64,000 nt of DNA from Streptomyces sp. NBC_00690 (GTDB lineage: Bacteria; Actinomycetota; Actinomycetes; Streptomycetales; Streptomycetaceae): the NCBI RefSeq assembly GCF_036226685.1, contig NZ_CP109009.1, forward strand, positions 4,650,001 through 4,714,000, given 5' to 3'. The notes beneath the pieces are model-generated. The model was given only the letters and a program-made list of their open reading frames with translations. It searched no databases and was not told the DNA's origin. A program made the position numbers and the translations under genes. Below are positions 37,129 through 61,803 of this stretch, piece by piece. Position 1 is the stretch's first letter, and each line of letters opens with the position of its first letter.

Positions 37129-37130
37129 CG

Positions 37131-43464: not shown

Positions 43465-43469
43465 ATCGA

Positions 43470-44713: not shown

Positions 44714-44723
44714 ACAACACGAA

Positions 44724-44748: not shown

Positions 44749-44754
44749 CTTCTT

Positions 44755-44798
44755 TGGAGCGGGTGACGAGAATCGAACTCGCGCTCTGAGCTTGGGAA
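44755..44798 (-). other. 3' half of tRNA-Gly (CCC), integration-site remnant
   Basis: Read on the minus strand it contains the anticodon loop TTCCCAA (CCC anticodon), a T-arm with GTTCGATTC and the 3' end CCCGCTCCA. The 5' half (D-arm and first acceptor strand) is missing; beyond the anticodon the sequence no longer matches a tRNA. Such 3' fragments arise when pSAM2-like elements integrate into a tRNA gene and are later rearranged. It sits next to an integrase fragment and marks the left boundary of the island. Confidence 0.72.
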
Positions 44799-44929
44799 TC
44801 ACAGGTCTTTCGGGCCTGGATGTGACCCTGACCTGCAGAAACGGCTACATGCGCATGTCTGCGTAGTCTCTCGGGCTGACCGCTGTTGACCGTGGCGCCC
44901 CGCCCTATCTGGCACGGATCTGGCACGGC

Positions 44930-45290
44930 GCCACGCGATGACGTAGCTGAGCTCCTCAGTCTTCGTCGAGTACTTCCGACTCGTAGAGCCGGTGATGTCG
45001 TCGAGCAGCGAGAGTGCCCACCCGGCACAGTTCGCAGGTTCAGTGTCCACAACGGCCTTCTTCGTCGCCTGCGAGAGGTCGCCCTTGAGCTGATTGGTGA
45101 AGAAGCGCTTGGTGAAGGCGCCGTGGGCAGATCCATCTTCGCTGCGCAAGATGCCAATGCGTCACGCAGCAGGGTGCGCAGGCAGGCGTCGATGCCAGCC
45201 GTGGTGAAGACGACGGCGGCACGGGCCTGATCGAGGTGAAGTTCAGTTGCCCCGCGTGGGTCGTCCTTGGCGGCTCGCGAGTCTCGGGTA
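44930..45290 (-). pseudogene. frameshifted hypothetical gene at the island boundary
   Basis: Two overlapping minus-strand frames together look like one protein: HLDQARAAVVFTTAGIDACL then RTLLRDAL in one frame, followed near 45150 by AHGAFTKRFFTNQLKGDLSQ and ATKKAVVD in another. This helical layout is reminiscent of HEPN-type or other toxin/defence proteins. There is no intact start-to-stop frame. It is upstream of the defence operon on the opposite strand. Confidence 0.35.
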
Positions 45291-45502
45291 GAACCCGTAC
45301 ACCACTTCCCAGGATGCAACCACTCGGCACGCGGAGGTCTGCCGCCATCCCGCAACCCCCGTCACCCAACCGCAGGTTCATGTGGCGCTCTGGGCGCCTT
45401 GCTGTACTTGGGGAATGACCCAAACCTCTGTGAAACCCGCAGCACTTCAGCATAATGGTTGAAAGGGGTCATCCCCAGTCTCGTGCGTCATCGGGGGAAC
45501 AG

Positions 45503-46939
45503 ATGCGGCATGCTGAGCAACGGCGTCTTCTGCACCACGCGGTTGTGATCGTCCCGGGGATCATGGGAAGCGAACTCGTCGACACGTCCACGGGAGATGT
45601 TCTCTGGGGTGTGCCCGAACTGTTTCGTTACACCATTAGGCGGCACCGCCGAAGACTGCGTTCCCTCGCTCTGACCGACGAGGAGCGCGCCGGTCGCATC
45701 GGACGGGTGACGCCGAGAGCTCTGCTGTCGGTGTGTGAATGGCTTCCGGGCCTGGGCGGGATCGAGCCCTACAGCAGATTGGTCGGCCGGCTCCGGCGCG
45801 GGGCGGTACACCCGGCGGCCGTTTTGCCGTTCCCCTATGACTGGCGGCTCTCCGTACGCCACAACGGAGCTCTGCTGGCCGAGGCCGCCCATCGTCATCT
45901 GGAGGCGTGGCGCGCGCATCCCGCCCACACTGACCACATGATCCGTACGGGGGAGGACCGACCTGCGGGAATCCTGTTCGTGGCCCATTCGATGGGAGGG
46001 CTGCTCATCCGCGAGCTGTTCCACATCCCCGGCGCCGCCGATGAGATCCGAGGGGTGATCACTGCGGGCACGCCCTTCCAGGGCTCGGTCAAGGCCGTCC
46101 TCATGATGAACTCCGGCCGTGGTGCGCCGCTGCCGCTGCCAGCCGATGTGCTGCGCGAGATCACCCACACGATGCCCGGTCTGTACGACCTTCTGCCCTC
46201 CTACCGTTGTCTCCAGGATGGCGACGACATGCGGGCCCTGACTGTTTCCGACATCACCGCGCTCGGCGGCGACCGCGGCCTCACGGAGGATTCGCTGGGA
46301 TGGCAGCGCGACCGGGCGGGCACCGCTCTGTCCAAGCACAGCATGATCGTGGGTACGGAGCAGCCGACCGCACAGAGCTTCCGGATGGACGCCGGTCGAG
46401 CGGTCGCCCAACACCACATGGTGATCCGCCGTCACGGCGAGCTGCGCCGTGACGAAGGCGGCAAGCCGGTCACGGAGGACCGGCGTGGGGATGGCACCGT
46501 CTACCGATTCGCTGCCCACCTGCTGGGCGTCCGGGAGATCCCGGTCGCCCAGCAGCACGGATCCCTTCCGCGCAGCAGCGGCGTCCTCGACGTGGCCGTA
46601 GGCGCGCTGAGCGGGCTGCGTCACCCTGAAGAGCTGGGCGATGTGCTGGGCGACGGGCGTTATGGGCTCGACGCACCGCACTGGGCACTCGTGGGGGAGC
46701 CCTTCACGATCCGACTCACCGGGACCGACGACCCGGCCGCGGTTGACTGCCTGGTAGAGGAAACCACAGGTTCCGGATTGACGCTCCGCCCGGTGCTGCG
46801 CCGGGACCGGGACGTACCGGGCTCGCTGTCGGCCCACTGCACGGTGCCGGGGCCGGGCCTGTACCGGGTCGAGATCTCGGGCGGCAGCGAACCCGTCTCC
46901 CAGCTGGTCCTCGCAGGTTCCGCCGCGGACGGCGACTGA
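45503..46939 (+). CDS. LCAT/PGAP1-like alpha/beta hydrolase, first gene of the defence-like operon
   Basis: A 478-residue hydrolase. The N terminus VVIVPGIMGSELVD (residues 14-27) is the oxyanion-hole segment of LCAT/PGAP1-type lipases. The nucleophile elbow is FVAHSMGGLL with Ser163. A C-terminal beta-rich region follows (WALVGEPFTIRLTGTDD). Family members deacylate or transacylate lipids, so this could be a membrane-damaging effector or a signalling lipase (inference). The frame starts at 45455, but the ATG at 45503 has GGGGGAA close upstream. It is followed 4 bp later by the caspase-NACHT-WD40 gene, so the two are surely co-transcribed. Confidence 0.8.
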   Translation: MRHAEQRRLLHHAVVIVPGIMGSELVDTSTGDVLWGVPELFRYTIRRHRRRLRSLALTDEERAGRIGRVTPRALLSVCEWLPGLGGIEPYSRLVGRLRRGAVHPAAVLPFPYDWRLSVRHNGALLAEAAHRHLEAWRAHPAHTDHMIRTGEDRPAGILFVAHSMGGLLIRELFHIPGAADEIRGVITAGTPFQGSVKAVLMMNSGRGAPLPLPADVLREITHTMPGLYDLLPSYRCLQDGDDMRALTVSDITALGGDRGLTEDSLGWQRDRAGTALSKHSMIVGTEQPTAQSFRMDAGRAVAQHHMVIRRHGELRRDEGGKPVTEDRRGDGTVYRFAAHLLGVREIPVAQQHGSLPRSSGVLDVAVGALSGLRHPEELGDVLGDGRYGLDAPHWALVGEPFTIRLTGTDDPAAVDCLVEETTGSGLTLRPVLRRDRDVPGSLSAHCTVPGPGLYRVEISGGSEPVSQLVLAGSAADGD

Positions 46940-46943
46940 GCAC

Positions 46944-49900
46944 ATGGACACGGAGCACGGTGCGGGCGCCGACGAGGACATGCGGGTCTTCCCGATCCAC
47001 GCCCTGCCTATCAGTACGCTGCGGACGATGGAACCGCTGGCAGCCGAGAAGGAGGTGGAGGAGATCTCCGCTGTCCTGGCCCAGCTCGGCGGGCAACCCG
47101 TCGACTGGGAACTCGGCTTACGGGAACCGGATCTGGCGATGGTCGACGCGCGGCTGGCGGACTGGGCGGCGGGCGGCGGGGCCCGTACCTCCGCGGTGTT
47201 ATGGATCGGGCACGGACAGTCCAAGGCCTCCGGGACCTCGTTGCTGGTCCCCGGGGTGCCGGGCAGTGCCACGGACGCGTGCTTCGTGCCGCAGAGCCTC
47301 GCGCGACACCTCCACGACGAGAGCCGACGCCGACACGTCGAGGGCGGTCACTGGGTTCTCGTTGTCGTCGAGGCCTGTGGGGCGGCCGGGTTTGTGGAGC
47401 AGGTCGCCACCGAACTGGGGCATCTGAAGGCCACCCAGGACACGGCCCTGCTGCTGATCGCCTCGGGAGCGGACATGGGCACCGGCTACCGGGGCGCCTT
47501 CCGCAGGAAGATTACCGAGGTCCTCGACGGATTCACCGACCAGGACCTGGACATCGACCCCCTCGACCTGGCCGGCCGGCTGGGAAAGTCCGCTGACTTC
47601 GTCGTCTACACGTACGGCCTCTACGGAGCACTGCCGCTGCGTCGCCGAGTTGCGGTGCCCTGCCTGGTGAGCGCCACAGTCCAGGACTACGGCAGACTCA
47701 AGCGCCTCCTGGCAGGAACCATGGACAGCACCCTCGCGCACTTCCTGCGTAACGGCATGGGCAGCGGATTCGCCGAGATGTCCTGGGGCTTCACCGGCCG
47801 TGGGCCCGACCTTGAGGTGATCGCCGACTGGGCCCACAACCCAAGCGGTTCTGGTGTACTGATCGTCACCGGTTCGCCGGGTGCGGGGAAGTCGGCGCTG
47901 CTCGGCAATGTCCTGTTGCACGCGCATCGCGACATCGGCCAGGCACTCGCCGCAGCGGTCTTCGCCGAGCGGTTGCGGCCGGATCTGCGGCTGCCGGACT
48001 TCGACGCGGTCCTGCATCTGACCGGGAGCACCCTGCACGACATCACCGGACAGGTCGCCTCGGCGTTCGGTGCCGGGCTGCCTGACCAGGCGCACGACAC
48101 CCAAGAACGGATCGCCGCCCTCATCGTCGCGGCGCAGGCCCGTGCGGCGACGGCTCCGGTGTTCTTGCTCGCTGACGCCCTGGACGAATCACGTGAACCG
48201 ATGCTCGTGGCCGGACTGCTGCGTGAGATCGCCTCGGTGCCTGGAGTGCGGCTCCTGCTGGGCACCCGCTCGTCTGCGCAGGAGCAGCCGAGCCGCGGGC
48301 AGGCCGGTGGCGAAGAGCTCCTCGACGCGCTCGGCTGCTACACCGGGCGCGCTCAGATACACCGGCTGCGGCGCGAGCCGCAGGCAGTGCGCACCTTTGT
48401 GGAACTGAGCCTGGGTCAGGGTCTCGGTGATCGGTACGCGACCGGGCCGGACCCTGCCGACCTCGTCGGCAGGATCGCCGACCTGGTTCGGGACCGGATC
48501 GCCGACGGGTCCTGGGAGTTCTTGCAGGCGTCGCTGGTCGTGCAGGAGATCCTGCGGGCACCCGATCTCCTCGAGCCGGGCCGGACGGCGGATCTCGAAG
48601 CCCTGCTGGCCCACGATCAACACGGCCTGTTCAACGCCGCCGTGGCACGTATCACCAGGGACTTCCCGCCGGCCGGGCCGCTGCTGGCCGCACTCGCCCA
48701 TGCCAGGGGCCGCGGTCTGCCGCGGGCCGACCAGGTGTGGGCCACCGTGGCCGGTGCGCTCGCTGAGGACGGCACCGTTCCGGCCGACGCGGACATCTCG
48801 ACGCTGCTGCACCATGCCGCCGCCTACGTCCTGCTCGACGGCGATGACCGGCGCAGCGTCTACCGGCTCGCACACCGGACCTTCTCCCAGCCTTTCCTGG
48901 CGGACGACAGCATGGAGCGCCGCCTGTCGATTGTCACGGCGCTGGCCTCGCTGGCGGCGGACCGTTCGGATGCCGCCCCCCGTGCTCCGCTGAACGGTTA
49001 TCTCTGCCGTCACCTGTCCGGGCACGCCGCTGATGCCGGTCCGGCGGGCTGGCGGGAACTGGCCCGGTACCGCCAGGTGCTGGACCGGATCGACATCCCG
49101 GCGCTGGCGGTGGATGTGCTGGGTGCCCGGCTGTTCGGATCGGCCCCTGGGGGACTGCCCGGGGAGGTGGCTGGCACCTTCGACTCGGCGGATCTGATCC
49201 GGGCGAGCAGCCTGGCCGACCGGCCCGGTCTGCGGCAACTGGGAACCGCGCGGGCCACGGGCGGGCTGCCGGAGGCCGGCCCGGAAGCGGCCTGGAAGGT
49301 GTGCTGGAGCCGGGTGCGACGGCATCCCCCGCACCTGAAACTGAATGGCCACAGCTACCCGGTGAGTGCGCTGCGACCCTGGGGGCCGGGATCGCCGCTG
49401 ATCGCCAGCGGCTCGGAGGACGGCACCACCCTGCTCTGGAATCCGTGGACCGATCACACCCCGGTCACCGTGCTGCCTGGCCCGGCGGACATTGCGGGCA
49501 CCCCTGGCCACAGTGTCCTGGCCCTCGCCACGGTGTACCCGGACGGTGACGAAGGCCTGCTGGCCGTGGCCCACCAAGACCGCCGCTTACGGATGTGGGA
49601 CAGCCGGGGCAGGCCGTTCGCTGACGAATTCGAGATCGACACCCCAACCTTCCTCACCGGTATGACGGTGCTCAACGGCGACCGTCGACGGCTGGCGATG
49701 GCCGGCTGGAACGGTTACCTGGCGCTGCTCGACCCCCACAGGCCCGGTATCAGGCCGCGTACGGCCGACGACCCCTTCGGCGGAAGGGTGCACAGCCTGG
49801 CCGCCGTCACCGGCCCTGATGGGGAACCGCGCCTCGTGACCGGCATCGAGGGAGGTTCTCTCGCGCTGTGGGATGCCTCCGGTGACGGGCCCCGGCGCCT

Positions 49901-50795
49901 GCGATCCGTCAGGACCGGCACCGAGCCCACCTCGTTGGCCGTGCTGTCCGACGCCCCGGGGCACAGCCTCGTGGCCGTCGCGAATATCGAGGCCGCCGAG
50001 CAGCCGGGACGGGCCGACGCCTCGTTGCACTTCTGGACGCTGTCCGGGAACGACCTGGTGCCGGCCGATGCCCCGCTGCATACCTGCCACGACGCCTTGA
50101 CGGCCCTGACTGTCCTCGCGAACGCTGATGGCACGCCCCGACTGGTCACGGCAGGCAGGGAAGGCTCAATGCGCCTTTGGGATCCTGGTAGGCGAAGCTC
50201 GATGGCATTGCTGCGCAAAGGAGCGTCGAAGGGGATCACACGGATCACGCCCATTGCGGGGCCCTCCGGCCAGTCATTGCTGGCCACCTCGGGACCCGGT
50301 GATCGCACGCTTCGGATCTGGGATCCCAGCATTCCCGACTCCTCCACCACGCCAGCCGGCGAGACCTACAACCGCCGGGTCGCCGCGCTGGCCCGCGGCG
50401 TCTCTCCCGACGGTGTCGAACTGGTTCTGATTACGGAGACGGACGGCACCGTCCGGGCCTGTTCCGCCGCCGACGGGAGCGATCACTCCGTCCCCCGGCC
50501 CGTCGTACCGGCACCCCGGACCGCGACCCCGGTACGCGTGCACACCAGCCACGAGGACACCGTCACAGCGTTCACACGGCTTTCCCGAGACGTCCTCGGC
50601 CGGCCGGCGGAGGCCTCGGGGAGTGCGGACGGCACTGTTCGGCTGTGGGACATGGAAAGTGGGCACGAGCTCCGGGTGCTGCGCCTGGGGTCGGCCTGCC
50701 GGGCGCTGGCCGCGCTCGACGGCGGCCGACTCGCGGTGGCGCTGGACGACGGACTGCTGGTTGTGGAGATCACGCCTGACACTCGGCGTAAGTAA
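46944..50795 (+). CDS. caspase-like protease-NACHT ATPase-WD40 protein
   Basis: 1283 residues in three parts. Residues ~1-200 are caspase-like (C14/CHF clan): the catalytic His is in LWIGHGQ (His90) and the Cys in VVVEACGAAGF (Cys145), with family-typical spacing. Residues ~300-560 are a NACHT-type STAND ATPase: Walker A TGSPGAGKSAL and Walker B VFLLADALDES. From about residue 790 there is a WD40 propeller of roughly ten blades, seen in repeated WD endings (TLLWNPW, LRMWDSR, LALWDAS, MRLWDPG, LRIWDPS, VRLWDME). This sensor-switch-protease layout is that of bacterial STAND immune proteins: ligand binding on the propeller drives ATP-dependent oligomerisation and protease activation. Its substrate may be the adjacent hydrolase (inference). 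Confidence 0.85.
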   Translation: MDTEHGAGADEDMRVFPIHALPISTLRTMEPLAAEKEVEEISAVLAQLGGQPVDWELGLREPDLAMVDARLADWAAGGGARTSAVLWIGHGQSKASGTSLLVPGVPGSATDACFVPQSLARHLHDESRRRHVEGGHWVLVVVEACGAAGFVEQVATELGHLKATQDTALLLIASGADMGTGYRGAFRRKITEVLDGFTDQDLDIDPLDLAGRLGKSADFVVYTYGLYGALPLRRRVAVPCLVSATVQDYGRLKRLLAGTMDSTLAHFLRNGMGSGFAEMSWGFTGRGPDLEVIADWAHNPSGSGVLIVTGSPGAGKSALLGNVLLHAHRDIGQALAAAVFAERLRPDLRLPDFDAVLHLTGSTLHDITGQVASAFGAGLPDQAHDTQERIAALIVAAQARAATAPVFLLADALDESREPMLVAGLLREIASVPGVRLLLGTRSSAQEQPSRGQAGGEELLDALGCYTGRAQIHRLRREPQAVRTFVELSLGQGLGDRYATGPDPADLVGRIADLVRDRIADGSWEFLQASLVVQEILRAPDLLEPGRTADLEALLAHDQHGLFNAAVARITRDFPPAGPLLAALAHARGRGLPRADQVWATVAGALAEDGTVPADADISTLLHHAAAYVLLDGDDRRSVYRLAHRTFSQPFLADDSMERRLSIVTALASLAADRSDAAPRAPLNGYLCRHLSGHAADAGPAGWRELARYRQVLDRIDIPALAVDVLGARLFGSAPGGLPGEVAGTFDSADLIRASSLADRPGLRQLGTARATGGLPEAGPEAAWKVCWSRVRRHPPHLKLNGHSYPVSALRPWGPGSPLIASGSEDGTTLLWNPWTDHTPVTVLPGPADIAGTPGHSVLALATVYPDGDEGLLAVAHQDRRLRMWDSRGRPFADEFEIDTPTFLTGMTVLNGDRRRLAMAGWNGYLALLDPHRPGIRPRTADDPFGGRVHSLAAVTGPDGEPRLVTGIEGGSLALWDASGDGPRRLRSVRTGTEPTSLAVLSDAPGHSLVAVANIEAAEQPGRADASLHFWTLSGNDLVPADAPLHTCHDALTALTVLANADGTPRLVTAGREGSMRLWDPGRRSSMALLRKGASKGITRITPIAGPSGQSLLATSGPGDRTLRIWDPSIPDSSTTPAGETYNRRVAALARGVSPDGVELVLITETDGTVRACSAADGSDHSVPRPVVPAPRTATPVRVHTSHEDTVTAFTRLSRDVLGRPAEASGSADGTVRLWDMESGHELRVLRLGSACRALAALDGGRLAVALDDGLLVVEITPDTRRK

Positions 50796-50811
50796 CAGGG
50801 ATGGGGAACCG

Positions 50812-53800
50812 GTGGACGTACCTCTGGACGACACGCCCGCGGAGGTGGTGGACTCGCTCTTTGTTGGGCCCAAGGCTCTTTACGGCCCGTACGAGGTCGT
50901 TGCGGGACCGGAGACGGTGTTGGACAAACGGCTGTTGCGAGTGACGGTTCAGCGGCCCGGAGACGATTCCGACACCCGTGAGGTGTCGCTGTTCCTCGAT
51001 GTCCACTCCATCGCCGGTGAGTTGTGGGAACACGAGGTCCGAAGCCTACTGCGGCTACAGGCGTTGGGACACCCGGCGCTACCGGAAATCGTCGACGGCA
51101 GCTTCGACGTCGCAAAACACGTCGCCTTCACCATGACGCGGGAGGAGGGGACCCCGCTGAACATGGCCTGGGAGGACGACTTCCCCCAATGGGCGGCCGA
51201 GTACCGGATCCCCGCCTTCGAGCAGTACAGCCTGCTCGTCGACGCGCTCAGTCAGCTGCACGGTTCCCGCATCATGCACCGCAATCTGACCCTCGGGGCG
51301 ATCAGGGTACGGCGGGACGCGAGCGATCCGGCCCGGACCACCCTCGCCCTGGCTCGCTTCGAGATGAGCGCTCTGCTCGGCAATCTGTTGCGCTCCATGA
51401 ATGGCCCGGACCAGGCCGCGAAGTATCGCGAACTGGTGACCACCCTGTATCTCACCCCGCCTGCCGGTACCGAGCGCGCCCAGCACCTGGCCTATCTCGC
51501 TCCGGAGACCTATCCGTCGCTGTTCGACGACGACCTGGCACCACGGCGGGACTGGCACAGCACCGACGTCTTCGGTTTGGGGGTCTTCGGCTGGGAGCTC
51601 TTCTGCGGCCCGCTCTCGATCGTGCTTCCCGGCCCCTACTCGGCGGTCGCCAACGCCGAGGACAGTGCCCTCCCGGAAGCCCTCGGGGTGCTGCACTCGG
51701 CGATGCGCTCCCATCTGAATGTCTCGAATTCGGTGCCGCGCGCACTGCGCATGGTTCTGCTCGACATGCTCGATCCCCAGCCGGTCGGCCGGACCTCTTC
51801 GTTCGCGGCCGCCCGCGCCCTGGAACAGAACTGGGACAACATCTGCGGCGTGTGGGAGGAGCGGAAGGAAGAGGAGCGCGCTTACCTGGTGGCGTTCATG
51901 CCCGAGCAGTCCGTGGACACCCTCTACCGCAACCGCCAGTGGATCTCGCACAGTCCCGAGGAGCCTGCGGGCCGCGACGAACTCCAGGCCTTTCTAGAGA
52001 ACGAGCTGCGTCAGGCCGAACTGGTGTGGAGCCAGGGCGGGGCCGAAGGATTCGTCCCGGGCAAGGAGATCGGTCTCAAGGAGGCCGAATGGGTCCTCAT
52101 CGGCGAACAGGCGGTCTGGTTCTGCGCCTTTCTCTACGACGAGACGCTCACCGGCCGCCGCCGTACCGAGCACAGGGAAACCCTCGTCATCAAGTACCTG
52201 CTGGACCGGCGGTTCGCCCAGGAAATCCTCGCAGCGCGTCCCAGGCGCCGTGTCGGCCGTCTCGATCTGGTGTCGTTCAGGGTGGGGCAGGACCTGAGCC
52301 GCAAGCGGGCCGGACGGCCGTCATGGGAGACGCTGACAGACTCGGTGCGGTCCGGTCGCGTCCTGCAGAACCCTGGGGACAGGGAACTGTTGCGGTCCCT
52401 GACCTTCATGCTCGAATATCAGCGCATCGCCCAGCGTGCCCGGCAGTACCCCTTCCTGCGGACGGATGACGGCACTGGCGGCACCCAGGTGCTCCAGTAC
52501 GACGCGCCCCGGGACCGTTCCTTTCTGCACGGGTCCCCCCTGCTCACCGCCTATGCGGCCGACAGGGGACGCAGGCCGCTCCTGGGCGACTTCGCCAAAG
52601 CGCTCCTGGAGGAGAACGAGAACGGCACGGTCGACCTGTCCGTGGTGTCCGGCGAGGGCACCCCGTACTTCGGACGGGACAAGATCACCGTCAGGTTGGA
52701 GGCCAGACTCGACGACGATTCCGTGCGGGTGACCCGGCCTGGGGGCGGGTCGATACCGAGAAGTGGCTGGCTGCGCCCGGCCGGTGACAGCGGCACAGCC
52801 GTCCAACTGGGCCGCCAGGCACGCGGCCTGGAGTCGCTGCGGCAGAAACCGGGGCTGATGCGAGCGCTGCACCGCCCCGCCTCGATCGATCTGGGCCGGG
52901 GGCGGTGGAGCGAGGAGGACGAAGAGGACGAACAACTTCTGGGTCAGGCACCAAGGATCATCCAGGACATGCTGGCGCTGCACCCCTTTTACGCGCTCCA
53001 GGGGCCGCCGGGCAGTGGCAAGACCACGGTCGCGGCGCGCGCCCTCCAGCGATATCTGCGCAACGAGCGGGGAGCGCGAGTCCTGGTCAGTGCCCAGTCG
53101 AACTTCGCTCTGGACCACCTCGGGATGCGGCTGACCAAGCAGCTGAGGAAGGAGATCGCGGACGACCGTATCTTGATTCTCCGTGAACTCCCGGACAGTA
53201 AGGGTCCCGAGGATCTGCCGAAGTCGCTGCGCCCGCACACCCTCGAAGCCCTGACGGCGAGGCTGGTGAAGAATATCCGTCAGACGGCCGAGCGGCTGAA
53301 GCGCGACTCGCGGGAGGCCGGAGAAGTGTTCACGTCCGCCGAGGAGGCATTGGTCGACGAATGGGTGCGTAAGGCGGAATCCAACCAGCTCGAACTCTCC
53401 GAGCGGATCAAGGCCGGCGCCAGCATCGTGCTCGCCACCTGTTCCATCGCCGGCACCATCACTGACAATGTCCGCGACCCCTCCGATGTTTTCGACTGGG
53501 TCATCATCGAGGAAGCGGCCAAGGCCTGGCCTACCGAGATCATCATGCCGCTCGTTCTCGGCGTGCGCTGGACGCTCATCGGCGATCACCGGCAGCTTGG
53601 CCCGCACCGGCTTAGCGATGTCCAGAACTTTCTGGACACGCTCGAGGGCAATGAGAGCGAGCACATCAAACGCCACTTCGAGGCGAAGGACCGCTATCTG
53701 GAGCATCTGGAACTCTTCGGGTCCTTCTTCCAGGACCGGCCCGAGCCCTCCGCCGCGAAGGCAAAGCCGCCTCTGGACAGGCTGGACATGCAGTTTCGTA

Positions 53801-54453
53801 TGCATGGGGACATCGCCGAGCCTGTGGCCCGCACCTTCTACCCGCGGCCCCCTAGCGGGGACACATCCGGGACCGACCACACAGGTCTGCCTGTCAGCTT
53901 CCTGCAGTCGGCCGAAGGCACCCGCCGGGCCCACCGGTTCAGGGAGCCGAAGTATTTGCGCGGTGCCCCGCTGGTATGGCTGGACACCTCCACCCGCACT
54001 GACTGCGATGACACTCCGTACTGGACCAACCAGGGGGAGATCAAGCTGGTGGAAGAGCTGGTCGAGAAGTTGGTTGGGTCCGCGCGCAATCCGGACGACA
54101 CGCCGCTCGCCGTGCTGACCCCCTACGCCGGGCAATTGCGGGAGATGAATAAGCGAGGATCACTGAGCGGACTGGTGCATACCGTCCACTCCTTCCAGGG
54201 CAACGAGGCGGAGCGCGTCGTGGTGTCCCTGGTGCGTTCTACGGTGCATGGGACCAGCCCGCGGAACAACGTCGGGCACGTCGCTCAGCCCGAACTCGTC
54301 AATGTGCTGCTGTCCCGCTCCATGGATCTGCTGGTGGTGGTGGGTAATCTGCCGCACTTCGAGCGGTACGGCGGCAAGAGCTGGGAAACCGTCACGGCTG
54401 CTTTCACCTACTTCGGGAAGATCGTCGATGCGGCGACCGGGGAGGTGCGGTGA
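50812..54453 (+). CDS. pseudokinase-SF1 helicase (Mokosh MkoA-like)
   Basis: 1213 residues. The N-terminal ~350 resemble a Ser/Thr kinase: the catalytic loop position reads HRNLTLGAIRV (His156, Arg157, Asn158 in place of the catalytic Asp), and no DFG is seen (LARFEMS). It is therefore probably a pseudokinase. From about residue 720 there is an SF1 (COG1112/UPF1-like) helicase: Walker A GPPGSGKTT (731-739), motif II VIIEEAAKAW (DE replaced by EE at 900-901, as in this subfamily), III LIGDHRQLGPH, IV QFRMHGDIAE, V TVHSFQGNEAERVV and VI NVLLSRSMD. Kinase plus helicase is the layout of MkoA in type I Mokosh defence systems. It starts at a GTG at 50812 with GGGGA upstream, 16 bp after the previous stop. 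Confidence 0.82.
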   Translation: MDVPLDDTPAEVVDSLFVGPKALYGPYEVVAGPETVLDKRLLRVTVQRPGDDSDTREVSLFLDVHSIAGELWEHEVRSLLRLQALGHPALPEIVDGSFDVAKHVAFTMTREEGTPLNMAWEDDFPQWAAEYRIPAFEQYSLLVDALSQLHGSRIMHRNLTLGAIRVRRDASDPARTTLALARFEMSALLGNLLRSMNGPDQAAKYRELVTTLYLTPPAGTERAQHLAYLAPETYPSLFDDDLAPRRDWHSTDVFGLGVFGWELFCGPLSIVLPGPYSAVANAEDSALPEALGVLHSAMRSHLNVSNSVPRALRMVLLDMLDPQPVGRTSSFAAARALEQNWDNICGVWEERKEEERAYLVAFMPEQSVDTLYRNRQWISHSPEEPAGRDELQAFLENELRQAELVWSQGGAEGFVPGKEIGLKEAEWVLIGEQAVWFCAFLYDETLTGRRRTEHRETLVIKYLLDRRFAQEILAARPRRRVGRLDLVSFRVGQDLSRKRAGRPSWETLTDSVRSGRVLQNPGDRELLRSLTFMLEYQRIAQRARQYPFLRTDDGTGGTQVLQYDAPRDRSFLHGSPLLTAYAADRGRRPLLGDFAKALLEENENGTVDLSVVSGEGTPYFGRDKITVRLEARLDDDSVRVTRPGGGSIPRSGWLRPAGDSGTAVQLGRQARGLESLRQKPGLMRALHRPASIDLGRGRWSEEDEEDEQLLGQAPRIIQDMLALHPFYALQGPPGSGKTTVAARALQRYLRNERGARVLVSAQSNFALDHLGMRLTKQLRKEIADDRILILRELPDSKGPEDLPKSLRPHTLEALTARLVKNIRQTAERLKRDSREAGEVFTSAEEALVDEWVRKAESNQLELSERIKAGASIVLATCSIAGTITDNVRDPSDVFDWVIIEEAAKAWPTEIIMPLVLGVRWTLIGDHRQLGPHRLSDVQNFLDTLEGNESEHIKRHFEAKDRYLEHLELFGSFFQDRPEPSAAKAKPPLDRLDMQFRMHGDIAEPVARTFYPRPPSGDTSGTDHTGLPVSFLQSAEGTRRAHRFREPKYLRGAPLVWLDTSTRTDCDDTPYWTNQGEIKLVEELVEKLVGSARNPDDTPLAVLTPYAGQLREMNKRGSLSGLVHTVHSFQGNEAERVVVSLVRSTVHGTSPRNNVGHVAQPELVNVLLSRSMDLLVVVGNLPHFERYGGKSWETVTAAFTYFGKIVDAATGEVR

Positions 54454-57400
54454 GCCAGATCGCCGAGATCGCCGTGCCCTGCCGGGTGGTCACGCTAAAG
54501 GTGATGCTCGGGGCGGAATCCGGTGCCACCACCTTGGAGGACCTCGTGGCGAGAGCCGTCGTTGCCGGTCGCCGGAGCGTCGAGGAACAGGCCGGTCTCT
54601 TCTCGCTGCCTCACCGGGTGATGCTGGACGTCGTCCACGGGCTCTGGAGCAAGGGCTACGTGTCCGTTGACTTCTCCGAGGGGACGCTCGAGGTCACCGA
54701 TATGGCCAAGGAACTGATCGCAAGCGGAGCCTCTCTCCAGGACGCCTCGTCGCGGCTGGAGGACCGCAAATTCCTGTTCGAGCCGGTCACCGGCATCATG
54801 TTTCCCCATGACCTGGGACTGCCCTGGGCCCCGCGCGGCAGTCTGCAGATGCCGGTCAGCCAGGGCATCAGTGCGAGCGACCTGCCCTCTGCAGAACTGC
54901 TCCGCGTGGTGCGGACTGCGGTCCGGCACGACCAGCGTACGAAGGGTTTCCGGCAGAACGTGCTGGATGTGTCCTTCGGCAACCCGATGCTGAGCGATGA
55001 CGGCAGCACCCGCTGGCTCTCGGTACAGGCCACCGTGTTCAGGGATCCGGACACCAGGCGGCTGTCGGTACAACTGGCGGACACGCCCGGATGGAACCAG
55101 CAGGCCCGGGCACGGTTCCAGGCCCAGATCGCCGAACTGGCCGAGCGGCGCCCAGACAGTTCGTTCATCACGGAGCTGGACGGCCGGGCCGCCTTGCGGC
55201 CTCCCCCACCGGAGAACCTCAGTCGGCTGGTGACCCGAATGACTGAGCTGGTCGAACAGCTGGCGGGGACCGAGTTCCCGCAGATGGGGCTGAAGCAGCA
55301 GGAACTCGTCACGGTCGCACAGAAGATCGGTGAGCGGGTGGACGACGCCGAGCGCTTCCGGGCCGTGGCGGAGGTCGTCGCGGCCGGTGCGGGGGTCCGC
55401 TGGGTGCTGGATGATCTCATTCGTTCCGCCGAGCACCAGCTGGTGATGTCCGTGCCCACGATCGAATACGGATGTCTGAACGACATCCTGCCGGACCTGG
55501 AGGACGCGGCCGGACGGGGTGTCACTCTGGTGTTCCTCTGGGGGCCCAGCATGGCCGCGGACTTGGCGGACAAGGTCAAGACGGCTCTGTTCGACCTCCG
55601 GGCACGGTATCCGGAGCAGGTGCTCATCGCGGACCGCAGTGCCCGCACCACGGCATCGGTGGTGATCCAGGACGATCAGCGCGCCTACGTCGGCTCGCAG
55701 GGTGTATTGACCTTGGGAGCGGGCACCGGGGTCCTGGTTAGGTCGGCCACCGACGGGTCCGAGCCGCCGCTTTGCGTGGTCGACCTGCTCATCTGGGCCC
55801 GGCGCAGCTATCCGTACTGGCGGATTGGCCAGCGCATTGCTTTTCGCGCCGAGGAGTTCCGCCGCACCGGGCAGCCGGCGGCCGGTGACGCAGGCTGGTT
55901 CGCGACCGAGAGGCTGCCGGGTCTCCCGGACGGCTGGGAGGCGGACGAAGTCGCCGCGCGCGCGGTGTGGGCGGATGCCTGGAGACGGGAAGGCCGCCGG
56001 TTCGCCGCCGCCGTCGCAGAAGTGCACCGCGGGCACCCCATTGTCCGGATGACCAGCGACGCGGCCTACCGCGATCTCGTCCAGTACGCACTGCACAGTG
56101 CGGCGGATCGGCTGGCAGTCACCGATGACCATGCCGAGAACGAGATCTGCGGCGACAGCCTGGCGCGTGTGCTGCGGGCCAGAATGGACGCCGGGGTCGT
56201 GGTGCACCTCCACCACCCGGTGCTGAGCCGGGCGGCCGGGCTTTCCCAGGCGTACGCGGATGTGACCAGGGACCTTGGCCACCTGCACACACTGCGCCAG
56301 AGCAAGGCACGGGCCCGCGCCGTGGTCCACGACCATGAGGTCCTGACCGGTAGTTACTCCCCGCTCGGGGACCGTACGGCCCGCTCCTCCATGGGAGCGC
56401 GCAGCGGGCACGTCGGTCTGCACATCACCGGGTCGGCCTTCACCGAGGCCTTCACACGCGAACTCGGTATCGCCGACTGGTACGGCAGCGCCCAGGAGCC
56501 CCCGCCGGCGGGGGCCGGGAGCGGCCAGGCCGCCGCGGACCCGCTTTCCGTGCTCGCCGGACCCCCCGACCGCGAGGTTCCCTGGATGATCCTGGAGGAC
56601 CGCCGCGCCGCGGGAGTGCCCGATCACGTGCTGCGGGCAGAGGCCGCGACGACGCTGCGCGACCACACCTCGCCTGGTCCCGACCGCGACAGCTGGGCGA
56701 ACTGGCTGCTGGAGGACGCCTGGCGCAGGCACGCGTTCGTGGAGGCATGTCTGCTCTCCCAGTATCTCGGCGAGGACACCGTTGTACCGCCCGCCCTTGG
56801 CGTGGTGGCGGTCCCTGTGGAGCACGGGCCCGTCGGTGAGCTGCTCTTCTTCGCGGCGATGGAACTGCAGGACAGGAATGCGCATCGTACGGTCGCACTC
56901 ATCGGAGCGATCGCTGAGTTGCTGCTGTGGGGCGGACCGGGGGGCGCTGAGACGTACGACATGCTCATTCAGGGCGGCGCGGGCACGGATCGGCTGCCGT
57001 CGGCCTGGCTGGCTCTCGGGGAGCGGGCGAGGGAGTGTCACGTGGACGGCGTAAAGCCTTTGCCGCTCGAGGAGCTGGCCCGGCGAGCCGACCTTGATCT
57101 CAAGGCGAACCGCGCCGCCGCGGGCTGGAGTGATCTCGCACGTCGTATCGGCGACCTCAAAGAGGCCCGGCAGGCATTCGCCTTCACCTCAGGCCGGTAC
57201 CTGCATGACAGCCTTGTCGCTGCCGACGGTTTGCTGTCCCGGATTCTTGCCGCCGCCAGCCCGGGCACCACGGCCGGGGCCCGACAGGCGCTGGCCGAGT
57301 CACTCCCGAAGGACGTCCGCAAGGAACTGAACCGCATCGTGGCGGACGGAGGCTATGACGCCATCAACTGGAGCAACCACCTTGCGTTCGCGGAGAAGAT

Positions 57401-57620
57401 CAAGCACTGCCTCAGGGACGCCCGTGAACTGGCGCGGCTCTCGGCCGCTGTCGAGGCCGGGATGGCGGGGAACCCGGTCGGTTTCGTCCACGCGGAACTC
57501 GCGCGCACGGTCGCGAGCAGTTGGGACGAGCTCTTCCGTGAGACGGAGGCGCTCGGGCCGCTGCTCCAACTGCCGGGGATGGCGCTTCTCAAGCAACTCA
57601 GGCCGTTGGACCGCTCATAG
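54450..57620 (+). CDS. PLD-fold protein with degenerate HKD motifs (Mokosh MkoB-like)
   Basis: 1056 residues. It starts at a GTG overlapping the helicase stop (GTGA). An N-terminal helical DNA/RNA-binding-like region precedes a PLD-like fold with two repeats. Repeat 1 (about residues 315-415) ends ...TTASVVIQDDQRAYVGS; repeat 2 (about 540-640) ends RARAVVHDHEVLTGSY. In both, the HxK of the HKD motif is replaced (T-A-S before D408; R-A-R before D628), while the GS turn is kept. The nuclease is therefore predicted to be inactive or to use other residues. The C-terminal ~400 residues are helical and unrecognised. PLD plus kinase-helicase is the Mokosh type I pair; the degenerate motif is unexpected and makes this family distinct. 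Confidence 0.72.
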   Translation: MSQIAEIAVPCRVVTLKVMLGAESGATTLEDLVARAVVAGRRSVEEQAGLFSLPHRVMLDVVHGLWSKGYVSVDFSEGTLEVTDMAKELIASGASLQDASSRLEDRKFLFEPVTGIMFPHDLGLPWAPRGSLQMPVSQGISASDLPSAELLRVVRTAVRHDQRTKGFRQNVLDVSFGNPMLSDDGSTRWLSVQATVFRDPDTRRLSVQLADTPGWNQQARARFQAQIAELAERRPDSSFITELDGRAALRPPPPENLSRLVTRMTELVEQLAGTEFPQMGLKQQELVTVAQKIGERVDDAERFRAVAEVVAAGAGVRWVLDDLIRSAEHQLVMSVPTIEYGCLNDILPDLEDAAGRGVTLVFLWGPSMAADLADKVKTALFDLRARYPEQVLIADRSARTTASVVIQDDQRAYVGSQGVLTLGAGTGVLVRSATDGSEPPLCVVDLLIWARRSYPYWRIGQRIAFRAEEFRRTGQPAAGDAGWFATERLPGLPDGWEADEVAARAVWADAWRREGRRFAAAVAEVHRGHPIVRMTSDAAYRDLVQYALHSAADRLAVTDDHAENEICGDSLARVLRARMDAGVVVHLHHPVLSRAAGLSQAYADVTRDLGHLHTLRQSKARARAVVHDHEVLTGSYSPLGDRTARSSMGARSGHVGLHITGSAFTEAFTRELGIADWYGSAQEPPPAGAGSGQAAADPLSVLAGPPDREVPWMILEDRRAAGVPDHVLRAEAATTLRDHTSPGPDRDSWANWLLEDAWRRHAFVEACLLSQYLGEDTVVPPALGVVAVPVEHGPVGELLFFAAMELQDRNAHRTVALIGAIAELLLWGGPGGAETYDMLIQGGAGTDRLPSAWLALGERARECHVDGVKPLPLEELARRADLDLKANRAAAGWSDLARRIGDLKEARQAFAFTSGRYLHDSLVAADGLLSRILAAASPGTTAGARQALAESLPKDVRKELNRIVADGGYDAINWSNHLAFAEKIKHCLRDARELARLSAAVEAGMAGNPVGFVHAELARTVASSWDELFRETEALGPLLQLPGMALLKQLRPLDRS

Positions 57621-57658
57621 CGCACAGCGCATGGCTCACAGCTCAGAAGGAGCAGACC

Positions 57659-60058
57659 GTGAACACACCCCTGCGTGATCTGCTGGCGTCCTGGCCCGGA
57701 CGGTTCCGGCACCGGGGTGTCCTGCTGGCTCTGCACGGCGGAGCGGAGGAACCCGTCCCCAGTGAACTGGGGCTGGCCGTCCTCGACGGATTCGGTCGGC
57801 GGGATCCCGCTGGGACATGTGAACAGCTCATCCTGGAGGGTGAGTTCACAGTCGCGGAGGTGATGCTCAAGGACTGCCCCGATCTGGGTCCGCGCACACG
57901 TGACCTCCGCCAGCTGCTCGTGACGGCGCGAACCCGGAGCCTGGAGGTCACGCGTCTGGAAGGCCGGACGCACTCTCGCCGGGCGGCGGCCGCCGGAGTG
58001 GACTTCGCACTGGACGACATCGAGGACATTGGCCGGACGGCGACGAGCAGCTGGCCGCGGGCCCTGGCGCTGCTGGGCCGGCGTGCCGCCGAACTCGCCG
58101 GACTGATCGAGGAGCGCGAACGTGAACTCCGGAAGCGGATCGCCGGTCACGAGGGGACCACGCCGACCCCCGGACCGGCCCTGGAGACGCTCATCAAGGC
58201 CGGTCACCTCAGCACCGTCCGGTCGCTGCTGGACCTTGAGCCGACGGGCGTCCCGCTTCCCGAGTCGGTGCCCCCGCTGCGCGCCTGGACCTGGCGCGAG
58301 GACAGCCCGGAGGACCTGCTTCGCTGTCACCTGGACCCCTCCAGACACCGCCCCGCGGGGTTCTCGCGCTGGGAGGCGGCTGATGGCGCCGGGCCGCTCC
58401 TGGAGGCCTACGGTGAGCTCCACCAGGACAGCGTGGCCTCCGTCGCCCGCTTCGCGGCCGCGCTGGGGCGTTTCCTCGGTGACGACGGACCGGAGCCCGC
58501 AGTCGATCGGTTCGAAGGCGGGTACCTGACATCCGTGGGTGGTCTGTTCACGGGCGCGCCGCTGTCCCGGCTCCACCCCACCGGGCGCATCGACCTTTTC
58601 GTGGCAAGCCCGGACACGGACACTCCTCCCGCCGGCCTGGTCACCTTGCCGCCACACCTGGCAGTCGGCCCCGCCTTGGAGCGCTCCGGCTACCTGGATC
58701 GCCAGAGGAGCGCCGTGGTGACGCTGCGCGACATGCTGCGGCTGGTCGTCGTCTCCGAGCACAGGGCCGCCTCCCTTGTCAGGGTCGCGGCCCAGCAGTG
58801 GCCGGTGACTGCGCTTACCGGCGAAACGGCCAAGGAGTTCCACCGGGTCCTCGGCGGCGACAGTGGTACCCGCTGGCAGACTCTTCGCTGGATCCTCGAC
58901 CTGACGGCGACGGGGGACGCTGTCACCGCGGACGTCATGTCGTCCTGCACGGAGATGGACGCCGGGCTGTTGCTCGTCATGCTCGATCGGGCTGGTCGCT
59001 CGGAGGGCCGGGGATGGTGGGGTACGCCGAATCCGGACCTGCATGTGTCCTGGCAGGAGGACATCGCTCTGATGCGGTCACTTGAGGACGAACTCCTCTC
59101 ACGATGTCCGGACATCGCCGCCCAGGTCGCCTTCTGGGCCGCGCTGACAGTGGGAACGGCGGACGGCCGCGCTGACCTCGACGACATGGTGGCCATGGCG
59201 GAGAGCTCGGTGGAAGGGCGTGACGCGGGGGCCGCCGTGGTGAACGGGGCGGCCGCCCTGGAAGGGAACGGGACCTTCGTCAGGGACGCGAGCGGTGATC
59301 TGTTGCTGAGGCCGTGCGGGGTGACCCGGGCGCTGGCGTCCATCGCAGAGGAGCGGCTGACCCGGGCGGCGCAACGGCTTCCCACTGGTGCTTCCGGGCA
59401 GTCCGCCCGTGCGGAACTCGACATGTTGGAGGGCTGGCATTCGAACCGCTACTTGCTCACTCCGTCCTTCCGGGATCACCAGCTCCTGGTCCGGTCGGGC
59501 AACGCGACTCAGGCCGAACTGCTGGAGAGCACGCGCGCCGTACGCGCCGACACGCAGGCAGCGGCCCCCGTCGGTTCCGCCGGCACGGCCGTTCTCGACA
59601 TCCTGCTGGCCTCCATGGCGGCTGAGTTGCGCGGCCACCGCCCCGAGGTACGCGTTGAGGCGCGTGCCCCCGACCGTACCCGTATTGATCTCGGGGATGA
59701 CAGCCTCCGGGTCATCCTGTACGAGCTCCTCGAGAACGCAGCCGAGGCAGTGGGGCCGCAGGGCGGTGGCACGGTGCAGGCGTTCGTAACTCAGGAATAC
59801 CCGGATGTCATCGTCGACATCCGGGACAGTGGCCCGGGGCTGCCGCCGGAGGTCCATGGCCGTGAACACCAGGTATTCCGCCGTGACTGGTCAACGCGGG
59901 GCCCCGGGCGTGGTGCGGGCCTGTTCCGAGTCAGGCACATCCTGCGTCAGCTGCCCGGTGGGGAGGCCGACATCACCGCTGTGCCGGGAGAACCGACGCA
60001 CCCTACCCTGAGGGGGGCTCACTTCCGCCTTGTGCTCCCGGCTGCCGACTATGGATGA
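57659..60058 (+). CDS. GHKL-type ATPase protein with large unknown N-terminal region
   Basis: 799 residues. It starts at a GTG with AAGGAG seven bases upstream, 38 bp after the PLD-like gene. The C-terminal ~130 residues form a GHKL (Hsp90/histidine-kinase-like) ATPase: N box ELLENAAEA (Asn693), G1 DIRDSGPGLP (Asp723), and G2 GRGAGLFRVRHIL. There is no HisKA phospho-acceptor and no membrane helix, so it is not a classical sensor kinase. The first ~660 residues have no recognised domain but are well ordered. It is the last gene of the operon and probably a chaperone- or gate-like ATPase of the system (inference). Confidence 0.75.
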   Translation: MNTPLRDLLASWPGRFRHRGVLLALHGGAEEPVPSELGLAVLDGFGRRDPAGTCEQLILEGEFTVAEVMLKDCPDLGPRTRDLRQLLVTARTRSLEVTRLEGRTHSRRAAAAGVDFALDDIEDIGRTATSSWPRALALLGRRAAELAGLIEERERELRKRIAGHEGTTPTPGPALETLIKAGHLSTVRSLLDLEPTGVPLPESVPPLRAWTWREDSPEDLLRCHLDPSRHRPAGFSRWEAADGAGPLLEAYGELHQDSVASVARFAAALGRFLGDDGPEPAVDRFEGGYLTSVGGLFTGAPLSRLHPTGRIDLFVASPDTDTPPAGLVTLPPHLAVGPALERSGYLDRQRSAVVTLRDMLRLVVVSEHRAASLVRVAAQQWPVTALTGETAKEFHRVLGGDSGTRWQTLRWILDLTATGDAVTADVMSSCTEMDAGLLLVMLDRAGRSEGRGWWGTPNPDLHVSWQEDIALMRSLEDELLSRCPDIAAQVAFWAALTVGTADGRADLDDMVAMAESSVEGRDAGAAVVNGAAALEGNGTFVRDASGDLLLRPCGVTRALASIAEERLTRAAQRLPTGASGQSARAELDMLEGWHSNRYLLTPSFRDHQLLVRSGNATQAELLESTRAVRADTQAAAPVGSAGTAVLDILLASMAAELRGHRPEVRVEARAPDRTRIDLGDDSLRVILYELLENAAEAVGPQGGGTVQAFVTQEYPDVIVDIRDSGPGLPPEVHGREHQVFRRDWSTRGPGRGAGLFRVRHILRQLPGGEADITAVPGEPTHPTLRGAHFRLVLPAADYG

Positions 60059-60248: not shown

Positions 60249-61781
60249 TTATCCGAGGAGGATGCGGTGGCGGAGGAGGTTGAAGCCTGCTCGTCCGTGC
60301 ATCTGGCGGGCGATCCGTTTGGTCTTGGTGTTGATGCCCTCGGTGGGGCCGTTGCTGTAGGTGAGTGTGACCGCGGCGATCACAGCGTTGCGGTCTCGCT
60401 CGAGGCCGCGGGTGAAAGCGTGCAGGTACGGCAGGTCGGCAGTAAGGACCTGGGTGATCCAGCGATCGAGCGCGTCGGCGTTCTCTGGCTGAGGTTTCAG
60501 GAGCGGGGCGAAGGTCCGGACGGCGGTGGCCAGGTGGGTCATCTCGGGGCAGGCAGCGGTGAGGCGGGCCAGGAGATCGCGATGTCCGGCCTTGAGGTTC
60601 TCGGGCCTGGTCAGCAGCATCCGGGCCAGCCTGCGTGGGGAGATGTGACTGCGGTCGGCGTCCGCGCGGCCTTGGTTGATGTACTTGTGCAGGAGGTTGA
60701 GGCAGCCTGTGAAGCCGAGGGCCTTGATCTCTTCGAAGAGGTTCTGGACGGGGACGGCGGGGTCTTCAGCCCGGCGTTTGCGCAGGTGCTCGCGGTGGGG
60801 ATCGACGAGGCTGGACCGGTATTTTGGGACGCGGAGCATCCGCTCGGGCCGGTCGGCTCGGGCATAGCGTTTGACGGTGTTCAGGGCCAGTTGCAGGCGG
60901 CGGCCGCATTCGAGGAGGCCCACGCCCTGGTTGAGCAGGTCGTGGACCTGATGCCAGCGTTCCAGTGTGGTCTGTGCGCGCGGTCCGTCATACAAAGGTG
61001 CGTCGAGTACGGTGGCCCAGCAGTTGCTGTGTGCCTTCACCTCGCTCAGGGCGACTTCGCACAAGTTGTGCCACACATGCCAGCGGTCACCGACCTGCAC
61101 GGCGTCGGGCAGGGCCCGGCGGATGGCTTCCGCGTAGGTGGTCGATCCGTCACGACACACGACCTCGACGCCTGGGTGGGCACGCAGCCACGTTTCCAGA
61201 GTGCCGGCGGTGCGGTCGGGCAGGACATCGATCCGTTCATGGGTCTCCGCGTCGATCACCACGGTGGCATAGTGGTGCCGTCGGCGCAGAGCGAAATCGT
61301 CGACGCCGATCACTCGAGGAATCCGGCTGGCCGGCAGAGGGATGCTCAGCAGGGCACGGAGGGCTGTGTGTCGGGACAGACCCATGGCCATTGCCGCCAG
61401 TAAACGCGCTCCAGCCCGGCCCGCTAACTCCTTCACCACCGCCTTGACCTGCCTGGTCAGACGGGTAGTACGCCGCTGATAGCGCTGCAGCACCCCGGGC
61501 ACTTGCTCGCGGAAGGTCTGACAGCACCCGCGCGTGGGACACACCAGACGTCGCACCCGCACGCGGAGCACGATCTGCCGGCCGTCGACTGGCACATCGG
61601 CCACCTTCCGCCAGTGATAGCCGTGCACCTGCCCTGACGGCACCCCGCACGCCGGGCAGGGCGCGGGCTCTTTCGGGGTCCGCGCCCTCACTACGACCCG
61701 CCCGCCCTCATCGACCACATCCTCAATGACCAGCGGAGATATGCCCGAAAACACCATCTGCACAAGCTCGTTGACGTTCAT
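60249..61781 (-). CDS. ISL3-family transposase
   Basis: About 510 residues, DDE-type transposase of the ISL3 family. The N-terminal zinc ribbon is seen as CPACGVPSGQ and, after the basic region, CPTRGC. The DDE core begins with GVDDFALRRRHHYATVV and DRWHVWHNL; the C-terminal segment SNGPTEGINTKTKRIARQMH with RAGFNLLRHRILL is typical. The frame extends to 61808 inside the inverted repeat; the ATG at 61781 is preferred. The gene appears intact and so the element may be active. Confidence 0.92.
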   Translation of the reverse strand: MNVNELVQMVFSGISPLVIEDVVDEGGRVVVRARTPKEPAPCPACGVPSGQVHGYHWRKVADVPVDGRQIVLRVRVRRLVCPTRGCCQTFREQVPGVLQRYQRRTTRLTRQVKAVVKELAGRAGARLLAAMAMGLSRHTALRALLSIPLPASRIPRVIGVDDFALRRRHHYATVVIDAETHERIDVLPDRTAGTLETWLRAHPGVEVVCRDGSTTYAEAIRRALPDAVQVGDRWHVWHNLCEVALSEVKAHSNCWATVLDAPLYDGPRAQTTLERWHQVHDLLNQGVGLLECGRRLQLALNTVKRYARADRPERMLRVPKYRSSLVDPHREHLRKRRAEDPAVPVQNLFEEIKALGFTGCLNLLHKYINQGRADADRSHISPRRLARMLLTRPENLKAGHRDLLARLTAACPEMTHLATAVRTFAPLLKPQPENADALDRWITQVLTADLPYLHAFTRGLERDRNAVIAAVTLTYSNGPTEGINTKTKRIARQMHGRAGFNLLRHRILLG

Positions 61782-61803
61782 CACACCGACATCAACGACC
61801 TTA

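Follow-up and report, generated by a model that had tools for sequence, protein, structure and literature searches.

The window analysed here, a 64,000-nucleotide stretch of the soil bacterium Streptomyces sp. NBC_00690, contains five co-directional genes (g1 to g5) on the forward strand between positions 45503 and 60058. An ORF check reproduced the coordinates given in the initial annotation as well as the intergenic gaps of 4, 16, -4, and 38 bp, confirming that the five genes are tightly coupled. The closest called neighbors, one per side, lie on the reverse strand, opposite to the operon: a signal peptidase I gene on the g1 side (43470-44501) and an ISL3 transposase gene on the g5 side (60249-61808). 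Used as an empty-site query, the signal peptidase gene matched scattered paralogues.

Predicted products of the five genes

The first gene, g1 (45503..46939), encodes a 478-aa LCAT-like alpha/beta hydrolase which matches the Pfam LCAT model (8.9e-12) and a group XV PLA2 profile (8.5e-09). Its predicted catalytic residues Ser163, Asp330, and His352 (codons at 45989, 46490, and 46556) do not vary in any of the 15 homologues compared. An alternative start for g1 is possible at 45455.

The product of g2 (46944..50795; 1283 aa) is assigned from domains, motifs, and predicted fold as a caspase-like protein with a NACHT-type STAND NTPase and WD40 repeats. Pfam matches cover the WD40 repeats (1.2e-21, from about 49311) and the NTPase, the latter through the NACHT-like model NPHP3_N (6.8e-10), while the NACHT model proper stayed under its cut-off (0.0077); Walker A starts at 47871. 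The caspase domain has no Pfam match, and a CHAT-domain protein of solved structure gave a single, weak profile match (E 0.0053). The predicted fold of this region (pLDDT 82) resembles MALT1 (E 8.7e-07, TMq 0.47, TMt 0.36) and caspase-7 (E 1.4e-05, TMq 0.50, TMt 0.61) with moderate TM-scores, and His90 (codon at 47211) and Cys145 (codon at 47376) are invariant in all 15 homologues. A His-Cys dyad in a modelled caspase fold is what is expected of a caspase-superfamily peptidase, and g2 is predicted to encode one. The WD40 part is the least conserved of the protein (29% mean pairwise identity versus 37-43% elsewhere), which fits the expectation for a sensor.

The third gene, g3 (50812..54453), was identified by PADLOC as MkoA (PDLC03920, 868 bits, positions 104-1270 in the long ORF), and Pfam finds the AAA_11/AAA_12 helicase (1.8e-27 and 1.2e-24). 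The kinase motifs are degenerate, with HRD changed to HRN (codon 51283), and the helicase motifs, with Walker A from 53002, are invariant. The product is thus a predicted pseudokinase joined to an SF1 helicase, and by its sequence it has the kinase-like domain and SF1 helicase that characterize MkoA of Mokosh type I.

Overlapping g3 by 4 bp, g4 (54450..57620; 1056 aa) encodes MkoB (PDLC03922, 442 bits, residues 3-707 against profile positions 4-600 of 610), so that MkoB lies beside MkoA as in Mokosh type I. An additional C-terminal region follows from about residue 708. The protein has a PLD-like fold, in line with the initial annotation, but its PLD active site is lost, as the His and Lys of HKD are replaced in both degenerate motifs (residues 401-408, 55650-55673; residues 621-628, 56310-56333). 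A weak match between the MkoB profile and an HD Cas3-type chain (E 0.037) was taken as chance.

The last gene, g5 (57659..60058; 799 aa), combines a mostly helical N-terminal part with a C-terminal GHKL ATPase domain (residues 681-795; Pfam HATPase_c, 1.2e-12), and its model (pLDDT 84) resembles 6blk in structure comparison (TMt 0.86). The ATP-binding Asn, Asp, and Gly are conserved. Among 11 aligned rows no conserved column for a phospho-acceptor His precedes the ATPase domain, and His reaches at most 7 of 11 anywhere in that part, and an active, canonical histidine kinase was rejected on this ground. PADLOC, named as a check in the initial annotation, recognized g3 and g4 but gave no match for g1, g2, or g5.

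Distribution and joint inheritance

The five-gene order occurs in the window and in eight further genomes from three families, with proteins about 30-60% identical to those of the window. As the same genes recur in the same order in eight other genomes, the cluster is more than a chance arrangement, and the composite reading passes the co-occurrence test set by the initial annotation. Near full-length MkoA of the window type was found in 8 of the 295 genomes drawn from the genus; five of these loci (own included) have all five genes, two have MkoA-MkoB-GHKL only, and one is cut by a contig end. Three matches besides the window, all five-gene, came from a draw of 394 genomes of the class, and a single-protein scan of genome contigs added one five-gene locus in Streptomyces rubellomurinus. 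The plasmid match H1, viewed by annotation only, belongs to Deinococcus.

In loci L031 and L033 the MkoA-MkoB-GHKL core is present with no hydrolase/caspase pair nearby, which supports the earlier suggestion that the last three genes form an extended Mokosh type I. This absence is local only, as the three-gene genome G224 carries a window-type LCAT gene elsewhere. The two-gene loci (n = 18) gave no match to g5 or g2 in the fetched stretch, and 17 of them none to g1; in the exception, L091, LCAT is weakly matched (20.8 bits) on the opposite strand at a distance of about 6 kb. Genomes G250 and G226, at first seemingly partial MkoA matches, turned out to carry two-gene Mokosh. Conversely, among 12 non-Mokosh LCAT places, chosen non-randomly from 32, nine have a g2-like neighbor, one has an LCAT-NACHT fusion, and two have neither. 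In L083, a single polypeptide combines a NACHT-like NTPase with a hydrolase of LCAT type (348 bits with the g1 profile). Core and pair each occur without the other nearby, in agreement with the fusion of two modules that had been proposed as one origin of the operon.

All 36 junctions of the nine five-gene loci lie between -41 and +78 bp, lengths which depend on the start codons chosen by the analyst. The gene trees are congruent for all ten pairs (distance r 0.88-0.97; 4-6 of 6 splits in common), and at most 3 of 5000 permutations reached as high a congruence. The flanks are unrelated, with one homologous pair between loci among 60 called flank genes. Tight junctions, agreeing gene trees, and unrelated flanks together indicate that the five genes are inherited as one unit. 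In the MkoA tree (30 rows), five-gene loci (support 100/99) and three-gene loci (98/98) group separately and join each other (100/99), apart from the two-gene loci of classic Mokosh type I. The g1 tree is compatible with one or with several recruitments of the hydrolase/caspase pair.

Loss of HKD and kinship with known systems

According to the PADLOC models, the operon has MkoA and MkoB of the Mokosh type I families, and they stand in the Mokosh type I gene order. It differs in that MkoB is about twice as long and has lost both HKD motifs, and in the added genes for a GHKL-type ATPase, a hydrolase, and a caspase-NACHT-WD40 protein; Mokosh type I is a two-gene system, whereas all nine loci of the clade have five genes. 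The 11 complete MkoBs that precede a GHKL gene measure 1049-1112 aa, and the 18 two-gene loci encode short MkoBs (frames of 463-626 aa).

All nine five-gene MkoBs carry other residues in place of the HKD His and Lys at both sites, so the PLD nuclease site of Mokosh type I is absent from g4, and by sequence these proteins are unlikely to be classical HKD nucleases. As the five-gene loci form one clade, the loss within it was probably a single event. HKD is intact in the MkoBs of L031, L091, and L092. It is lost, however, in 7 of the 20 remaining MkoBs with no hydrolase/caspase pair nearby (one of two three-gene loci, namely L033, and 6 of 18 two-gene loci); among actinobacterial two-gene MkoBs it is degenerate in 6 of 16. 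These counts exclude L032, which lies at a contig edge; the trees include it among the three-gene rows. Since other two-gene MkoBs also do without it, HKD may not define Mokosh type I. The loss together with the invariant catalytic residues of g1 and g2 agrees with an effector swap in which a nuclease gave way to protease/lipase. Because HKD loss is unspecific, the sequences do not demand such a swap, and it was abandoned as a proven event once the wider MkoB search had revealed the loss in two-gene systems.

The consulted portions of Kaur et al. 2020 (PMC7159879) predict a pairing of caspase and alpha/beta-hydrolase effectors in VMAP/MoxR-vWA and GTPase-centred conflict systems. The composite reading of the initial annotation is sustained by co-occurrence, but this pairing had, according to those portions, already been noted elsewhere. 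Adjacent caspase-superfamily and alpha/beta-hydrolase genes are common to these systems and the operon, the likeness to the VMAP/MoxR-vWA pairing holding, in the text consulted, at the alpha/beta-hydrolase level, as the LCAT-like type is that of the operon's hydrolase. The operon departs from these systems in having NACHT-WD40 within the caspase chain and Mokosh genes beside the pair; Pfam matched neither MoxR nor vWA in its five proteins, which by these models lack the VMAP/MoxR-vWA ternary composition. The same portions describe Apaf-1/apoptosome-type receptors, in which a STAND NTPase carries WD40 at its C-terminus and acts through a caspase (PMC7159879). From its sequence g2 appears alike in all three, but its protease lies within the same chain and its partner is a lipid hydrolase.

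A proposed composite immune system and its alternatives

Sequence comparison resolves the operon into two modules, a Mokosh type I core with extended MkoB and GHKL-type ATPase, and a 5' hydrolase plus caspase-NACHT-WD40 pair. From this kinship, the role of the operon is probably antiviral. Our main reading, held at a probability of roughly 0.45, is that these two older modules make up a single composite immune system. MkoA, MkoB, and the ATPase would form an ATP-driven complex recognizing aberrant phage nucleic acid or stalled infection, and would act as sensor or switch, since the five-gene MkoB probably does not work as a classical HKD nuclease. The WD40 propeller of g2 would read the signal of the core, or a perturbed complex, upon which the NACHT protein would oligomerize in an apoptosome-like manner; the caspase-like domain would then activate the LCAT-like hydrolase, and the attack on membrane lipids would kill or arrest the infected cell. 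The steps that we infer are the trigger, the relay from core to NACHT protein, the effect of the protease on the hydrolase, the nature of the lipid substrate, and protection. In its fullest form, which we offer tentatively, stepwise module capture produced a helicase-gated bacterial inflammasome, in which a nucleic acid-sensing Mokosh complex stripped of its nuclease output signals through the ATPase and an apoptosome-like caspase-NACHT-WD40 receptor to a membrane-destroying phospholipase.

Somewhat unlikely, though the strongest competitor, is that the operon comprises two independent defense systems, an extended Mokosh and an abortive-infection pair of hydrolase and caspase-NACHT protein, which act separately and are transcribed together for the sake of co-expression and co-transfer. 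The core standing alone in L031 and L033, the pairs seen at non-Mokosh LCAT places, and HKD loss in Mokosh lacking the pair agree with this, but the fixed order and near-overlapping junctions in all nine loci, the congruent trees, and the single clade exceed what a loose bundle would lead one to expect. It is improbable, in our estimate, that the core is a first line acting through its helicase, guarded by the NACHT-WD40 protein, which brings about cell death once the core is disturbed by a phage inhibitor; the variable WD40 beside better conserved caspase and NACHT parts and the core found with no pair nearby would suit such a guard, yet the sequences fit guard and relay alike. A role in programmed death or mycelial development instead of defense, suggested by the mostly multicellular prokaryotes in which the consulted portions of PMC7159879 place conflict systems able to carry caspase domains, is very improbable given the scarcity of the operon (5 of the 295 genomes from the genus), its unrelated flanks, the adjoining ISL3 element, and the Mokosh kinship.

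The composite reading suggests that a known defense system gained a cell-death arm. The operon looks like the product of a defense system that captured an entire cell-death module. Forms with two, three, and five genes are all extant, and the GHKL-type ATPase joins the long MkoB as an added partner. It offers a testable case of a signal relay in which a helicase sensor would act on an NLR-like caspase receptor with lipase output.

Composition and setting of the operon

The initial annotation described five tightly coupled genes, and all five ORFs are real, lie where they had been placed (45503–60058, forward strand) and are spaced by 4, 16, −4 and 38 bp. The start of the first gene (g1) at 45503 is plausible from its homologues, whose likely starts scatter around that point; 45455 is an alternative. 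As proposed, the g1 product belongs to the LCAT-type alpha/beta hydrolases, and its best solved relatives in a profile search include group XV phospholipase A2 (8.5e-09), a putative lipase (5.6e-08) and LCAT (3.3e-05). Ser163, Asp330 and His352, which we take to be the catalytic triad, are kept in all 15 aligned sequences. The g2 product matches a NACHT-like NTPase and WD40. Pfam detected no domain in its N-terminal part, which weakly matches a CHAT-domain profile and is predicted to adopt a caspase fold (pLDDT 82), with MALT1 paracaspase and caspase-7 as first and second fold neighbours at moderate TM-scores. His90 and Cys145 are present in 15/15 sequences, and together these features uphold the reading of g2 as a caspase-NACHT-WD40 protein.

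The third gene encodes MkoA, with a kinase-like part and a helicase. In none of nine aligned rows (six from five-gene loci and three others) does the kinase-like part retain the catalytic Asp, HRD reading HRN, HRR or HGS, or the DFG motif, which reads RFE or HFE; the helicase motifs are conserved, in keeping with a predicted pseudokinase-helicase. The MkoB match in g4 spans residues 3–707; the extra region that follows gave no convincing match in Pfam and profile comparisons. The g5 protein is mostly helical in its N-terminal part and ends, as the GHKL label implied, in an ATPase domain resembling those of histidine kinases. Since the ATP-binding residues are conserved but no conserved phospho-acceptor His was seen among the aligned homologues, it probably acts as an ATPase or adaptor and not as a two-component kinase.

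The window lies at 4.65–4.71 Mb on contig 1 of a 9.17-Mb genome. Immediately downstream of the operon is an ISL3-family transposase (60249–61808, reverse strand), adjoined by a Schlafen AlbA_2 domain gene (61815–62360, reverse), and a protein with a Lantibiotic dehydratase C-terminal domain is encoded at 63227–63964 (reverse). The upstream stretch (34900–45400) is lower in GC and sparsely coding, and contains genes for a colicin-immunity-like protein (35500–36492), a trypsin-like peptidase (39020–39937) and signal peptidase I.

Recurrence of the five-gene unit

The five-gene unit is real and conserved. Co-occurrence, the check set by the initial annotation, was run across Streptomyces and class genomes, and nine loci, the window included, carry all five genes. 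The genus survey, in which 295 genomes were searched with MkoA and with g5 and the loci found were then checked by tblastn for each of the five proteins, yielded four further full sets (genomes G268, G003, G176 and G033). Streptomyces rubellomurinus has another, and a class-wide draw of 394 genomes added three (G521, G509, G456). The nine fall into three families (tool labels f1, f4 and f19), with identities to the window proteins in alignments from 30% (g4 of G456) to 60% (MkoA of G268). All 36 gene junctions across these loci lie within −41 to +78 bp (25 overlap), gene trees of g1–g5 agree in all ten pairwise comparisons, and the flanks share one homologous pair among 60 called genes. Tight junctions, agreeing trees and unrelated flanks together indicate that the five genes have been passed on and have travelled as a single unit; the locus stretches examined showed no further gene conserved alongside them. 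Every near full-length g5 match in the 295 genomes, and the N-terminal match of G224, adjoins an operon-type MkoA, and the other eight matches cover the ATPase domain only; the g5 of G040 falls under the limit of this search and was recognised by position and Pfam. Genome G033 carries both a five-gene locus (L030) and a two-gene Mokosh locus (L123).

Relation to Mokosh type I

Classic Mokosh type I consists of MkoA and MkoB; the original Mokosh paper is Millman et al. 2022. The PADLOC MkoB model, searched against 323 genus genomes, found 23 places in 22 genomes: seven MkoBs are long (five in five-gene loci, two in three-gene MkoA-MkoB-GHKL loci), 15 are short and one is truncated where its contig stops. 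MkoA adjoins MkoB in all 16 actinobacterial short-MkoB loci (the 15 of this search, L089 among them, plus L090), and none has a g1, g2 or g5 match within the stretches taken, those of L120 and L122 being shortened by the ends of their contigs. The two-gene form is shared by two Rhizobium plasmid loci (L091 and L092), which have no match to g5 or g2; in L091 a weak LCAT match lies some 6 kb off on the opposite strand. On the Rhizobium etli plasmid pRetIE4803b, roughly 6 kb away from a two-gene Mokosh locus, an LCAT-annotated gene (L096:2792-5829) overlaps a hypothetical gene and has TIR-like and cyclase genes as neighbours.

In an MkoA tree of 30 rows, the five-gene (100/99), three-gene (98/98) and two-gene rows each lie on one side of a branch, the three-gene group comprising three rows, one of them (L032) cut by a contig end with its third gene unseen; the deep joins are tentative because the tool warns of long branches. 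The simplest reading of these sequences is that two genes would have gained a long MkoB and the ATPase, and then the hydrolase/caspase pair (g1 and g2), though the three-gene forms may instead have arisen by loss of that pair. Long MkoB and ATPase go together in 11/11 complete loci, which suggests that the MkoB extension could be a docking site for the ATPase. The likening of g3–g5 to an extended Mokosh type I system is thereby substantiated: MkoA, long MkoB and ATPase also occur as a three-gene form without the pair nearby.

The PLD-like assignment of g4 needs a correction at the active site: His and Lys of both HKD motifs are replaced in the MkoBs of 9/9 five-gene loci, with Asp kept. These residues are intact in three-gene locus L031 and in both Rhizobium loci. 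The HKD is degenerate in three-gene locus L033, and the 16 actinobacterial two-gene MkoBs keep one motif in 10 cases and none in six, the latter forming a Streptomyces clade in the MkoA tree (L115, L116, L117, L126, L127, L128). Thus HKD degeneration is seen in at least two lineages that lack the hydrolase/caspase pair in the vicinity, and the HKD loss in five-gene MkoB would fit an effector swap without proving one. The MkoA match of L116 and L127 is split over two frames, which may mean that these copies are damaged or wrongly assembled.

A portable pair joined to Mokosh

Proteins of the g1 type occur in 34/246 genus genomes (E ≤ 1e-40). Context was inspected at 12 of 32 non-Mokosh places: nine have a g2-like neighbour (six same strand, three divergent) and one is a NACHT-LCAT fusion. 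At L083:5112-9392, a NACHT-like NTPase precedes an LCAT-type domain in a single 1426-aa protein; a 984-aa protein at L081:71-3025 has an LCAT-type domain in its C-terminal half and no further Pfam match. The neighbours and the fusion argue that the pair is a portable module, and the sensor-protease plus lipid-hydrolase pairing recognised initially does recur apart from Mokosh. This agrees with Kaur et al. 2020 (PMC7159879), according to whom a caspase domain in a VMAP system always has an alpha/beta-hydrolase gene next door; no word in the main text of that paper begins with LCAT, lecithin, lipase, GHKL, PLD or phospholipase D.

In the literature, PLD-like domains are assigned to Mokosh (PMC10952713), and Mokosh is stated to degrade the transcripts of viruses and to share domain homology with the piRNA pathway (PMC11291487). 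Neither the five-gene arrangement nor a GHKL partner of Mokosh was found described in the portions of the open-access literature searched; the system therefore appears, so far, to be undescribed, in line with the initial annotation. The fusion of two modules raised there is borne out: the unit combines a Mokosh type I variant with what is predicted to be a caspase/lipid-hydrolase module for cell death, each also found apart. An exact relay, in which the MkoA-MkoB-ATPase core would signal to the NACHT protein and this in turn to the hydrolase, is tentative and less certain than one shared pathway. That both modules act in one pathway, whether by such a relay or with the NACHT protein guarding the core, we consider probable, at roughly 60%.
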